DNA of 64,000 nt from Dryococelus australis. Its lineage: Eukaryota; Arthropoda; Insecta; Phasmatodea; Phasmatidae. A program made the position numbers and the translations under genes. Of this stretch, positions 28,118 through 34,029 are shown piece by piece (position 1 is the stretch's first letter; each line of letters begins with the position of its first letter). The notes beneath the pieces were generated by a model. It ran no database searches. It was not told where the DNA came from and saw nothing but the letters and a program-made list of their open reading frames with translations. The DNA lies in the NCBI GenBank assembly GCA_029891345.1, contig CM056993.1, forward strand, positions 107,065,300 to 107,129,299, written 5' to 3'.

Positions 28118-28690
28118 GTGTTGTAACAAGGGTTTAAATTAAGTATACATGTGATTACATGTTTATGGGGAAAACATGACAAAAATTTTTAAAAGTTTAT
28201 ATATTAAGATTTTTATATATTTAATATATATATACTTAAAAGAAACCCTGCATCCCCTATTGCGTAAATAAAAAGATTAAGTATATGTACTCATAAAAAT
28301 ACGAAAAATATATTTAACAATAACATATATATTAAAAAATTACAAAAGGCATTAAAGTTATGGATTTGGTATTTTTAATTCATTTTTAATCAATTTTATT
28401 TAATTTGTAAATTTTGCAGATATGAATGTACAAGCGACCTGTCTACGAACTCGTATTCTCAAGGGTAAATGAATTTTGTCAGAAAAATCGATTGGGTGAA
28501 GTGTAATTATCAAACATAATAGTAATGTTTTTAAACAGTGTTTTCATTTAACGTCTAAAATTTGCAGACATAAGTGTATCGAGCGATGTGTCTACGGACT
28601 CGTATTTTCAAGTAGAATTCTAACATGGGTTCACAACAGCTAAATACGCAATAGCATAATGTTATAAAATAAAAGTTATGTACTTTTATA

Positions 28691-31498
28691 TGAGCGGGTA
28701 ATTGTTAAAGGGGATCTAAGTCACTTTTAGATAGTTCTGAGAAAAACCTAAAAAACTGTATAGTTTGTATAATTTATACGATGGAGCAATGGGAATGCTA
28801 GATTATATTTAGTATGCGTAGACTAACATTCATGTGAATTTTAATCTAATTGCATGAAACAGTTTGTTTAAAAAATTTATATTGTTGACTTAGGTTCCTT
28901 TTAACACTCAACAAACTTTAAAAAAAAAATTTCGTTTGAAATAATGTAAAGTTTCAGCAAATACTGGACAATAGTTTCTAACAATGTATTAAAAAATACA
29001 TGTTCTGTTGTTCTGTATAAGAACAAATTTACAATGGTGAAATTACGTGGACAGTAAAGAAAACCCTTTTTGTTGAATGAAATGAGTAAATAAAATGTTA
29101 TTCGACATCGTCGTGAGAAACATCATCGGTTATGGGTCACTGGATGATTTCATTCCAGAATTCTATGTGTTAATCTGAAATATATGGCATTACCTTCTTC
29201 AGATGTGATTTTATTCCTTTTGATAGGCAATTTCCCTTGAGGATAATTTTTTTTACATAGTTACCCAACATTATCAGTTTTTTTAAGAACGAAGGTATGT
29301 AACGTTTCAAAACAACCTGACCTGATGTATTCACTTGATTGTATGGTACCATTTCTGGCCTCAGAGTGCACAAAATAATGAAATTTTGATATGCAATAAT
29401 GTACTCTCTCATTTCTTTGAAGGCGGCTGGTTTCAATAGAAACTGAGTTTTTTTATAGGGTGCAGGCCACCAAGTATAATTAGCAGTGATCATGTCCGTC
29501 TCGACAAAAATAACAGTTCCTGGAGTTTTTTGAGCATTTGCTATAAGTTCACATAGCCTCCATGGTGTATAGATTGGATCGCATTTCTTTATCGGACGTT
29601 TTATAATGCTGCATTTCCGGTCACGTGGGTTATATGAGTGACCACGCAGAGGAAAATACTGTTTTATAGTTTTGAACTTGCACGTATCTGTTAAAGCAAT
29701 ACAAACTCTAGACAAAGTATGGTTCTCATTTTGTCCTGGACAGTTATCCGAAAAAAAGATGCAACTCATCTACAGTTTCTGGGAAAAAGTTTTTGACATA
29801 GTGCATCAGAGATGATGCTACTTCATCAGGATCTTTGTGTGCTTCATCTTCGTGGTAAACGTAGTAGTGGCCGACATCTGTTCTGGTGTTGGCAACACAA
29901 AATACATTTACTGGTAGTTGCCGCTAATAGAATATGTCCTGGACAGATATCTTAGGAAGACTGGCATTCTGCATGTAATCAAACACTATTCCTATGATGT
30001 TTTCATTTTCCTTAGTTCGTGTTGTTGTTTCATTAAGAGCATTTGCGAATTTTTTTTTCTCTCCTCAGAAGTACCAATAGCTCAACCGAAGCGATTCGTT
30101 TCACAGTATCGTTCAAATATGGACTACGTATACGCAATTTTTTCTTCACAAAAACTACAAGTGTCTATTTGTGGTCTTCCGAACGTAAGATGAAAATTTT
30201 CATTAAAGTATTTATTATAAAACTCGTACTTGGTATTCCGCTTTATATAATTCATTCATTTTTCTAACATACAGCTCTGATAACAAATAACTAATATGTA
30301 TTTGAGTAGATGCGTAGTGTGCTTTCTTGACAGTAAGCTTATATGCTCATGTATGTTCAAAAATTCATTCGGGCCTATTTTGTTTGCACAAGGATGTCTG
30401 CCAAGCTTAACACGAGGCGATTTTCCTTCTAAAAGTAACTCCCGGACACGTTTGATTCGCTTGCCACTCACATCATACAGGCTGAAAAAGGCCTCCTGAC
30501 AAATTTCTACCTCGGTTTCACGAAGAAGTACATACATTGTAGTTAAACGATTTCGCCTTCAAAGCAGCATCATCTTTTCTAGGCCGGTGTTTTGAAACAA
30601 TCTTCACCTTTATCATCCGTTGTAAATGTAGACCTTGTTCGTCTTTCGAGTGCAACTCTTCGTATAGAGAATCATGTATAACAGTTTTGTCTACGTCGTC
30701 AAATTTTTCAAAGCACTTGTTCTTGCACCTGTAACAAATAATAATAGTTTTTTTAGGCCTATGCCATTAATAACAATAATACTTTCAATTAGGCCTGAAA
30801 GGTTGGTCAAAGTTAGTAAGATAGGGAGGTTCAAAGTAACTCATAACACTAGTGCTTAATGCACAGGTTTAACCAATATACAAAACCTAATAAAATATTG
30901 CTGTGCTTAATAATATAACATTTTTATTATCTTAAAAATAATAATGCAGTACATATTTACCTGCATGGTGAACGAGTTGAACTAGTTGATTGCTGTTTTC
31001 CTTCGTATCCTATGCATTCTTTGCCTTCTAAATTCAATTTCTTAGTTAAAATGCGGTTTTACATTGCCGGATTTTGTCGTCCTCTTTCTTGGTTTTACTA
31101 GACTATCATTTATACAACTACTTTCAGAACATTCACTCATTGTACTTACTTCAATGTACGTGTTACTTATAAACACTAACCAGCATCACAACAGCTACAT
31201 AACCTGTACTTCTTGTTCAGTGACAAAAATAGCTCGTAGCAGTGCTGCCACTAGTTGAGAGTTAAAAAGTCCCGGAGTCACTGCCATTTGTTGAGTGTTA
31301 AAAGGTATCTAAGTTATTGACTTAGGTCCCTTATGACTCTCATTACGAAAATTCAGTAGCTGGAAAACATGCTTAAAATGCCTGCATTAGATACCTTTTA
31401 AAACTCAAAGGTGTATGGACCCTTAGAAATATCATATCTGCATTAAATTCATTTTGTAAAAAAAGTGACTTAGGTCTGTTTTAACAATCACCCATTCA
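28691..31498 (-). mobile_element. DNA element carrying DUF7869-like gene
   Basis: 2808 bp. The left end is TGAGCGGGTAATTGTTAAA and the right end, reversed, is TGAATGGGTGATTGTTAAA. It is flanked by TTTATA at 28685-28690 and 31499-31504, a 6-bp duplication (AT-rich, so some caution). Subterminal inverted copies of GACTTAGGT and CCTTTTAACACTCAA lie at about 28884-28915 and 31279-31400. The surrounding palindrome arms align across the insertion, which independently confirms its limits. It contains one gene on the minus strand and appears self-contained, so that gene is the obvious transposase candidate. Confidence 0.75.
29170..31140 (-). pseudogene. DUF7869-like protein, candidate transposase
   Basis: Member of a large insect family marked by SDNCxGQN, from memory DUF7869-type; no function is established to my knowledge. 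ATG at 31140-31138 begins MSECSESSC, followed by a basic stretch and LEGKECIGYEGK. An intron (30729-30960, GTAAAT...TTACAG) joins SPCR to CKNKCFEKFDD in frame. Then come EICQEAFFSLYDVSGKRI (about 30500), a TCSFCEEK motif (about 30160), LPVNVFCVANTRTDVG (about 29900), SDNCPGQNENH (about 29745), RGHSYNPRDR and a WWPAPYKK tail motif, with a stop at 29172. Defects are a one-base frameshift just before SDN, an in-frame TAG near 29925, and frame changes near 30530 and 31060. FDYMQ, SDN and RDR supply acidic residues that could form a DDE/D-type triad (inference). Confidence 0.78.
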
Positions 31499-34029
31499 TT
31501 TATATATATATATATATAACTTTTACAAACAAGTTTATCGAGTGACATGCCAACAGATTCGTATATTTTAAACAGATAAGAATATGTCATCAGAATATAT
31601 GATTACGTGACTATTACCAGCTCCATATTGGATTTTATAAGCACATAAATGTGTTAGTAAATATTCCAAGTGTTTATATCTTCCGGCTTGTGTTTTCAAG
31701 TCTAATGCTAAAATGACATTATGGACTTAGATTTTTCGCACTTTCTGGTCGCCGTATTGAAATTAGTGGGCGTATGAGCGATTTTTTTTTCATTTTTAAA
31801 TTAAATACTTAATCAGTATGAGCCCCAAGTACAATGAAGTGGTTGTCTTATCACAAGTCATATTTTAAGTGCAGCATGCCTATACATGATCCCTATGAAC
31901 TTATAAGCACAGTTGATCATTATTTCCGATCTATTTAAGTTATAGACACCAATTTCAGACTGTGGGTACCGCTCGTAGCACTGATCAATGTGATATGGCT
32001 CATTATGCCTTAAACCTTTTCATAGGCATAGTTAGTCATAATTTCCGAACTGTTGAAGCTATAACTACAAAATTCATATCATGGGCATCACCCCCAATGA
32101 TGAAACGACCGCAAGGGAAATTATGCCCTAAGCTCTCTTGAAAGCATAGTTGTCTTTCATTACTGCTTTATAAGATAGAGCCGCAAAATTCGAATCATAG
32201 GCATCAACCCCAATAACGAAAAATATCGCAGGGTTAAGTTCCCTTTAAGCCCTCTTATAAGTAAGTTAGTCATAATTTCCAAATTATTTAAGATATGGTA
32301 GCAAAATTAATATTATAGGCATAACCCCAAACGACGAAGAGGACTGTACAGTCAATTAAGCCTTAAGCCCTCTTATAAGTATACTCGGCTGCCATTTCTC
32401 ATCTACAGAAGATATAGTCATTACATTTATAACATACACATCTCCCCTGATGTCAATCAGGGTGATAGGGGCAAGTACGCCCTAAGCCCTCTTATGAGCA
32501 TAGTTGACAACTATTTTTCAACTACGGAAGACATAGTAATCAAATTTGATTTCTATATCTTCAGAAGATGGGAAATGGTTGTCAACTATGCTTATAAGAG
32601 GACTGAGGGAATAGTTGGCCCTATCACCCTGATTAACATCGCGGGAAATATCTGTTATAAATTTGGTTACTATAGATTTGGTGAATGTGAAATGACTTAA
32701 GGCTTATTGTTCCCTGCAGCTCTTTTCGTTATTGGGGATTATGCTTATGCTCTGAATATTACTGCCGTTTCTTCAATAGTTAGAAAATTATGCTTTACTT
32801 GCTTATAATACGGCTTAAGGGGTACTTGACCCTGTGATCCTTTTCGTCATTGGGGGTGATTTCTATGATTCTAATTTGGTGGCTGTATCTGAAAAAGTAC
32901 TGAAATGACAGCCCACTATGATTATAAGAGGGCTTAAAGCATAATTGCCCTACCATATTGATTGATATCAGAGGCGGTGCATATGATATTAGTTTGGTGA
33001 CTATAGCTTCATTGGATAGTAAATAATGACTAACTATGCTTATAAGAGGGCTTAAAGCGTAATTGACCCGACCACCCTCATCAACATCGGGGGCGATGCA
33101 TATGATTGGAATTTCCTAGCTATAGCTTCAACAGCTCAGAAATTATGATTAAATATGGATATAAAATGGCTTAAGGCATAATGAGCCATGCCATATTGAT
33201 CAGTTCTACAAGCAGTACCTGCAGTCCGAGTTTGGTGACTATAACTTAAAACGGTTCGGAAATGATAGCCAACTATGTTTATAAGTTCGTCTAGGTCAGA
33301 AATAGGCATACTGCACTTAAAACATGACCTGTGGTAAAGCAACATTTTATCTGTACTCGAGACTCAGACTGGTTACATTATTAATTTAAAAATTTTAAAA
33401 ATCATTCCTATGCCTACTAAATTCAATATGGCATCCAAAAACATGCGAATATTCAAAATTCATAATTCTCCTTTAGCATTCGACTTGATTACACAAGTCC
33501 GAAAATATATAACACATGGTATATTTACTAATACATTTATATACTTATAAAATCCAGTATGGCGCTGGTGAAAGTTATATTATTATATTTTCTGATGGCA
33601 TATTCTTATCTGTCTAAAAATACGATTCTGTGGACACATCACTCAATACACTTGTATGTAAAAGTTAAATAAAATTAAATATATTACTTTATTTTATAAA
33701 ATTGTGTTTTGCTGCTGTGATCCCAAAATTGAATTCTTCTTGAAAATATGAATTCATAGACTCATCGCTCGTTACTCTTATGTCTATAAAGTTTAGAAGT
33801 AAAATAAAACCATTTATTATATACATAACTGTTAATTATAAAATTATTCTTTACCTTATCGATTTTTGTAACATAATTCAATTATTCTTGGAAATAGGAG
33901 TTCGTAGACATGGCGCTTGAAACTTTTATATCTGTAAATTTTACAAGTTAGCTAAAATTTATTTAAAAAATTAATTAAAATTCCAAATCCATAACGTTAA
34001 TGTCTTTTGTAAATCTATACTAATAAATA

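Follow-up and report, generated by a model that had tools for sequence, protein, structure and literature searches.

A decayed transposon copy lies at 28691 to 31498 of the 64,000-nucleotide stretch of the Dryococelus australis genome analysed here (GCA_029891345.1, contig CM056993.1, positions 107,065,300 to 107,129,299; hereafter the window), and its only gene is related to the Pfam family DUF7869 (PF25273). The copy is 2,808 bp long, with no strand assigned to it, and its boundaries are those of further copies in the genome. Its left terminal inverted repeat (TIR) occupies 28691 to 28728 on the plus strand and its right TIR 31461 to 31498 on the minus strand; both are 38 bp long, and the family form, obtained for the left one from genome copies, is TGAACGGGTGATTGTTAAAAGGGAYCTAAGTCACTTTT. 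Three-frame translation reveals one coding unit between these ends, on the minus strand, with a start codon at about 31140 and a last stop at about 29098 (29098 to 31140), and no second long open reading frame (ORF) in the window element. Read against its homologues, this unit is a pseudogene, interrupted at six or more points by a frame change or a stop. A stretch with GT..AG borders (30960 to 30729, minus strand) sits where the homologues continue unbroken and thus fits the homologue reading as a probable intron. A C-terminal fragment of the broken gene matches DUF7869 just under the cut-off (E 1.4e-5, 25.2 bits, cut-off 26), and a read-through query retrieves 42 proteins, the named ones being from beetles and from D. 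australis itself; among the 41 of these that were aligned, 40 match DUF7869. An earlier reading of the window from its letters alone (the original prediction) had proposed inverted ends around a single intron-containing DUF7869-like gene with SDNCPGQN and RGHSYNPRD motifs, and this description holds, both motifs being present.

The element is repeated in the genome. It matches 66 pieces of the 3.415 Gb searched. At 19 places, the window copy included, at least 2,690 of the 2,808 bases are covered, with 81-86% identity at the 18 places outside the window. A 24-base TIR pattern allowing up to three mismatches finds 63 places, versus one for the reversed control; a looser pattern was non-discriminating (154 matches versus 106 for its control) and was not used. 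On average, copies of this family (family 1) lie 6.2% from their majority sequence. One of them, L034, is internally deleted to 1,534 bp while retaining both TIRs and flanking TA dinucleotides, which would fit either mobilisation in trans or a deletion that came later. In three others (L023, L024 and L026) the ends stand 6.7-8.8 kb apart with an intact 2-bp duplication, meaning that other sequence entered the element.

The target-site duplication (TSD) of family 1 is 2 bp, as established by flank counts and by an empty site. Flanks were compared at lengths 1 to 8 in the 27 copies with both ends placeable; L020, which has lost its left end, was excluded, nine of the loci L021 to L037 lack one or both scorable ends (L021, L025, L028, L029, L031, L032, L035, L036 and L037), and the TIR-pattern loci examined (L045, L046, L047, L060 and L064 only) yielded no pair of ends. 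The two flanking bases are identical in 20 of the 27 copies, versus a rate of 13.7% when flanks are mispaired (binomial p 1.8e-12), including all of the last eight copies added to the count, and the exact duplications are AA (six), TA (four), AT (three), GT (three), TT (two) and AC (two). Longer identities are rare among the same copies: none at 3 bp, three at 4 bp, two at 6 bp, none at 7 bp and one at 8 bp. Copy L008 is inserted in a tRNA-like short interspersed element (SINE), for which the SINE copy in another locus, L069, supplies the empty site; the comparison shows the same two SINE bases flanking L008 left and right, apart from a change in one of those on the right. The 6-bp duplication TTTATA claimed for the window copy is a coincidence: these letters do occur at 28685 to 28690 and 31499 to 31504, inside a (TA)n tract, and account for one of the two 6-bp identities, while the dinucleotides that abut the element are TA on the left (28689 to 28690) and TT on the right (31499 to 31500), so that its own 2-bp TSD has decayed. 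The palindrome arm offered as proof of insertion has not stood up either, as the arms are local AT-rich sequence and the other copies examined have different flanks. The tRNA-like SINE is met twice among DUF7869 elements, since it interrupts one copy (L069, positions 1021 to 1215) and hosts another (the flanks of L008). In the window, a 37-base repeat (70-76% alike) is found on both sides of the element, at 28442 to 28478, 28591 to 28627 and 31679 to 31715, which indicates insertion within an older repeated stretch.

Two further families of the same genome have the same architecture. They were picked, as the two loci with the longest open frames, from a genome-wide domain search in which 150 of 1,555 candidates were scored and all 150 exceeded the DUF7869 cut-off, so that counts are lower bounds. 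Family 2 (L069) occurs in at least 39 other places at 87-92% identity, with a shared right edge and the TIR TGAACCGCTTATTGTAAAAAGGGACC...; in the 14 of these 39 scored places that were read at both ends, nine show an exact 2-bp TSD, one an identity at 3 bp, one at 5 bp and none at 6 bp. Family 3 (L068) belongs to a distant branch, occurs in at least 39 other places at 84-90% identity and has the TIR TGAAGACTTGATATAAAAACCGGGCTAAGTGCC; ten of these 39 were sliced, both ends were reached in six, and all six show an exact 2-bp TSD. All three families are thus interspersed repeats with TGAA..TTCA termini and TIRs of 33-38 bp, and the three TIRs are more alike than shuffled versions (p 0 to 0.003, 2,000 shuffles). 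The check suggested by the original prediction, namely that other DUF7869 genes lie between such ends, therefore succeeds in this genome for the ends and fails for the 6-bp duplications, which are of 2 bp. Over 414 codons, families 1 and 2 differ at a proportion of 0.26 of nonsynonymous sites (pN) and 0.88 of synonymous sites (pS); their amino acids are conserved and their synonymous sites saturated, for which reason no dN/dS is given. It could be argued that DUF7869 marks an ordinary host gene family found near repeats by chance, as Pfam assigns it no function and annotations present some copies as host genes. However, common exact ends, 2-bp TSDs, the SINE empty site and dozens of copies per family refute this for the three families, and we give it next to no credence in general. 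We conclude instead, with a probability of about 0.9, that the window holds a dead copy of a DNA transposon of self-contained type and that its single DUF7869 gene would be the transposase gene.

Genes of the same kind lie between inverted repeats in bacteria. A profile scan of bacterial and archaeal genome contigs returned 13 pattern stretches, of which 11 are relatives at 20-27% identity; the nine of these 11 loci scanned with Pfam all exceed the DUF7869 cut-off (E 2e-25 to 6e-9), and in NCBIfam none of the nine fragments has a transposase model. The full genes listed encode 628-657 amino acids. Inverted repeats enclose the DUF7869 gene in seven of the 11 loci, these seven being the ones on which the repeat finder was run. 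Six of them have repeats of 39-61 bp at 87-100% identity that delimit units of 2.07-2.72 kb, and the seventh, L108, has 64-bp arms at 75% that enclose another long ORF in addition to the DUF7869 gene. Among the remaining four, a single end of this type is seen in L101 and L103, and none in L104 or L107. With one bacterial member as protein query, at least 743 matches were obtained among 8,000 scored candidates; all 120 of those listed bear PF25273 and are named as hypothetical proteins, except for two labels without content and one evident misnomer. The bacterial distribution is patchy and copy number is low, a match being found, among 297 genomes of one member's phylum, only in that member's own genome. 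No match to one bacterial protein was found in plasmids, and in viral contigs the 68 stretches matching animal-profile patterns and the 39 matching bacterial-profile patterns included no relative. A tree of 35 proteins separates bacteria from animals by a long branch, with full support for either side, and there is no sign in these sequences of recent exchange between them. Likeness between bacterial and insect TIRs is only suggestive (21 non-independent comparisons, p 0.008 to 0.28, 11 of them below 0.05). Together with the sister families of one genome, the seven bacterial loci with inverted repeats support the proposal, already made in the original prediction, that DUF7869 proteins mobilise such elements.

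Conservation of the protein points the same way. With residues numbered as in the relative P0002, D265, E308, D342 and D384 are invariant in 16 proteins (eight animal and eight bacterial rows, some of the latter being fragments), as are D203, C205, C208, H235, Q268, P273, C344, Q347, N348, N350, G377, H378, F387 and two more positions. The acidic residues that had been singled out beforehand (FDYMQ, SDN and the DR region) are thus among the invariant ones. In 101 rows, D265, E308 and D342 are still invariant and D384 is present in at least 90%. The resulting order, D-E-D-D, presumably recalls that of RNase H-like enzymes. Since the Pfam match begins at residue 285 of P0002, downstream of D265, the DUF7869 model would leave the first part of the presumed core uncovered.

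Just inside the TIRs, a 21-base TIR core recurs. In the six of the 27 family 1 copies that were searched, it is found (up to six mismatches) four to eight times per copy versus 0-0.2 in shuffles, and always within about 250 bp of an element end. In the window copy it lies at 28886 to 28906 (minus strand, element position 196, one mismatch in 21), 31296 to 31316 (plus, three mismatches) and 31318 to 31338 (minus, three mismatches), with weaker forms at 31260 to 31280 (plus, six mismatches) and 31383 to 31403 (minus, five mismatches). Such subterminal repeats have the appearance that transposase binding sites would be expected to have. The DUF7869 protein would recognise both the TGAA... ends of 33-38 bp and the core motif repeated inside them, and would cut at the ends through a D-D-D active site formed by D265, D342 and D384, E308 being invariant as well, within a presumably RNase H-like fold; an upstream Cys-Cys-His cluster (C205, C208, H235) may bind zinc. 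The element would then be joined to its target at a stagger of 2 bp and leave duplications of that length, mostly of A/T bases, probably by cut-and-paste rather than copy-out.

An alternative is that a known transposase, for example a CACTA-like one, moves these elements in trans and that the DUF7869 gene is an accessory or captured passenger. Catalytic activity of DUF7869 is unproven, and passages of PMC1636069 and PMC12730594 record 2-bp TSDs in animal CACTA/TRC and Plavaka elements. Against this, the DUF7869 gene lies inside the ends of all three insect families, two of which are only distantly related (a level of about 25% protein identity between groups), the bacterial units carry it too, and its acidic residues are invariant, so that we regard a passenger gene as improbable. 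DUF7869 is very probably, then, the transposase of a superfamily that spans animals and bacteria and appears to be undescribed.

Comparison with named superfamilies, whose characters are taken here from passages of the papers cited, bears on whether this superfamily is distinct. CMC elements (CACTA/EnSpm, animal TRC and Plavaka) are TIR DNA transposons as well, and their TSD of 2-3 bp agrees with that of the DUF7869 elements. However, their termini are CACTA/CCC or TGT..ACA (PMC1636069, PMC12730594) versus TGAA in the three DUF7869 families, and their transposase has a Transposase_21 domain, which is unmatched in the 41 relatives at E up to 1; CACTA/EnSpm membership was rejected for lack of this match and of CACTA/CCC termini. 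ISL2EU (PHIS) likewise has a 2-bp TSD and AT-rich targets (PMC4482050), but it duplicates AT within A|AT|T, whereas AT makes up only three of the 20 exact family 1 TSDs, which excludes it. ISL2EU elements also mostly have two ORFs, with THAP and YqaJ domains, versus one gene in the window element, although not all ISL2EU candidates have the second ORF. IS3EU/GingerRoot, which the 6-bp duplication of the original prediction would have suited, has a 6-bp TSD and mostly TA..TA ends (PMC10045372) and was rejected, given the predominance of 2-bp identities in family 1 and the TGAA..TTCA termini. Tc1/mariner (ITm) was set aside because TA accounts for only four of the 20 exact TSDs, and KDZ (Kyakuja, Zisupton), with TSDs of 7-8 bp (PMC12730594), because such identities are found in none and one of the 27 copies, respectively. 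ISAzo13/Zator, a lineage common to bacteria and eukaryotes, was rejected on its 3-bp TSD (PMC10045372), a length at which no family 1 copy and one of 14 family 2 copies have identical flanks. A few bacterial DUF7869 members do show weak similarity to the Pfam family DDE_Tnp_ISAZ013 (two of nine fragments, E 0.0096 and 0.086, and one of 25 bacterial rows, E 0.018), far below its cut-off of 26.9 bits.

These last matches, and a 2-bp TSD like that of CACTA or ISL2EU, are what would be expected if the DUF7869 elements were a divergent lineage of CACTA/CMC, PHIS or ISAzo13/Zator missed by profile models. The TGAA... ends and the 3-bp TSD of ISAzo13/Zator argue against this, as does the finding that no Pfam DNA-transposase family matches any of the 41 animal relatives at E up to 1, where the only matches besides DUF7869 are weak ones such as L1 dsRBD (a double-stranded RNA-binding domain; E 0.032 in one of the 41, taken as chance). 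We therefore consider a missed lineage unlikely, though clearly less so than a passenger gene. The DUF7869 elements appear to be a new kind of TIR transposon at superfamily level, outside every named superfamily tested. No mention of DUF7869, PF25273 or the DNCxGQNKN motif was found in the PMC literature searched, a name given only in Repbase, Dfam or ISfinder being possible, and no such kind appears in passages of PMC12730594, PMC10045372, PMC4482050, PMC1636069 and PMC4455052. It is likely that this superfamily joins bacterial units resembling insertion sequences (about 2.1-2.7 kb, one gene of about 630-660 amino acids, inverted repeats of 39-61 bp) and animal transposons of 2.8 kb with TGAA ends and 2-bp TSDs, under the common acidic order D-E-D-D, and that most of the DUF7869 'genes' on record for insects, for a spider and for a sea anemone belong to transposons.

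Several observations weigh against a DUF7869 transposase of this kind. All 22 near full-length family 1 copies are broken, with longest stop-free frames of 99-267 amino acids, whereas full-length relatives near the top of the protein match list have 438-613 amino acids; a passage of PMC10268593 gives PacBio continuous long reads as the source of the D. australis assembly, and single indels may thus be sequence errors. The ends of several copies in families 1 and 3 were extrapolated across mutated outermost TIR bases. In family 3 the TSDs are only AT (four) or TT (two), the mispaired rate is 46.7% (p 0.010), and the support from this family is accordingly modest. No relative was found by sequence in the PDB, one match at E 0.74 being taken as chance. 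In bacteria, nine of the 11 genomes have a single domain match and the other two have two, so that the case for mobility there is carried by the inverted repeats. The bacterial TSD is also ambiguous: two of six loci match if the element starts with TGGGG and four of six if it starts with GGGG, and because AT is self-complementary the latter is indistinguishable from a longer TIR.

If correct, this interpretation would supply a likely role for a Pfam domain that has no assigned function and recurs in many insect gene sets, and would apparently extend the transposases by a superfamily shared between bacteria and animals. Loci with DUF7869 could then move from the host-gene to the mobile-element class. 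Part of the stick-insect repeats that could not be classified, put at 1.56 Gb for D. australis in a passage of PMC10268593, may become nameable, and the bacterial members, which have open frames, should make the chemistry directly testable.

Some further observations concern individual loci. Two DUF7869 proteins, P0010 and P0138, are labelled RNA polymerase subunit RPABC2 and UDP-glucose 6-dehydrogenase, respectively, which are evident misnomers or fused models. The bacterial inverted-repeat unit with two long ORFs spans L108:196-3744, and we take its second ORF to resemble an ISL3-type transposase. At L098:3679-4486, ORFs directly adjoin the Desulfocicer unit, whose left end apparently interrupts one of them; these ORFs presumably carry integrase-like motifs (HSDNGG). 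Finally, inside single transposon copies in the D. australis genome, short segments of the element's interior, with unit lengths of about 39, 72-80 and 59 bases, stand in tandem, head to tail (G000:C8:126588754-126589260, G000:C3:20305564-20306508 and G000:C3:35625791-35625972), as if satellites were starting from the transposon.

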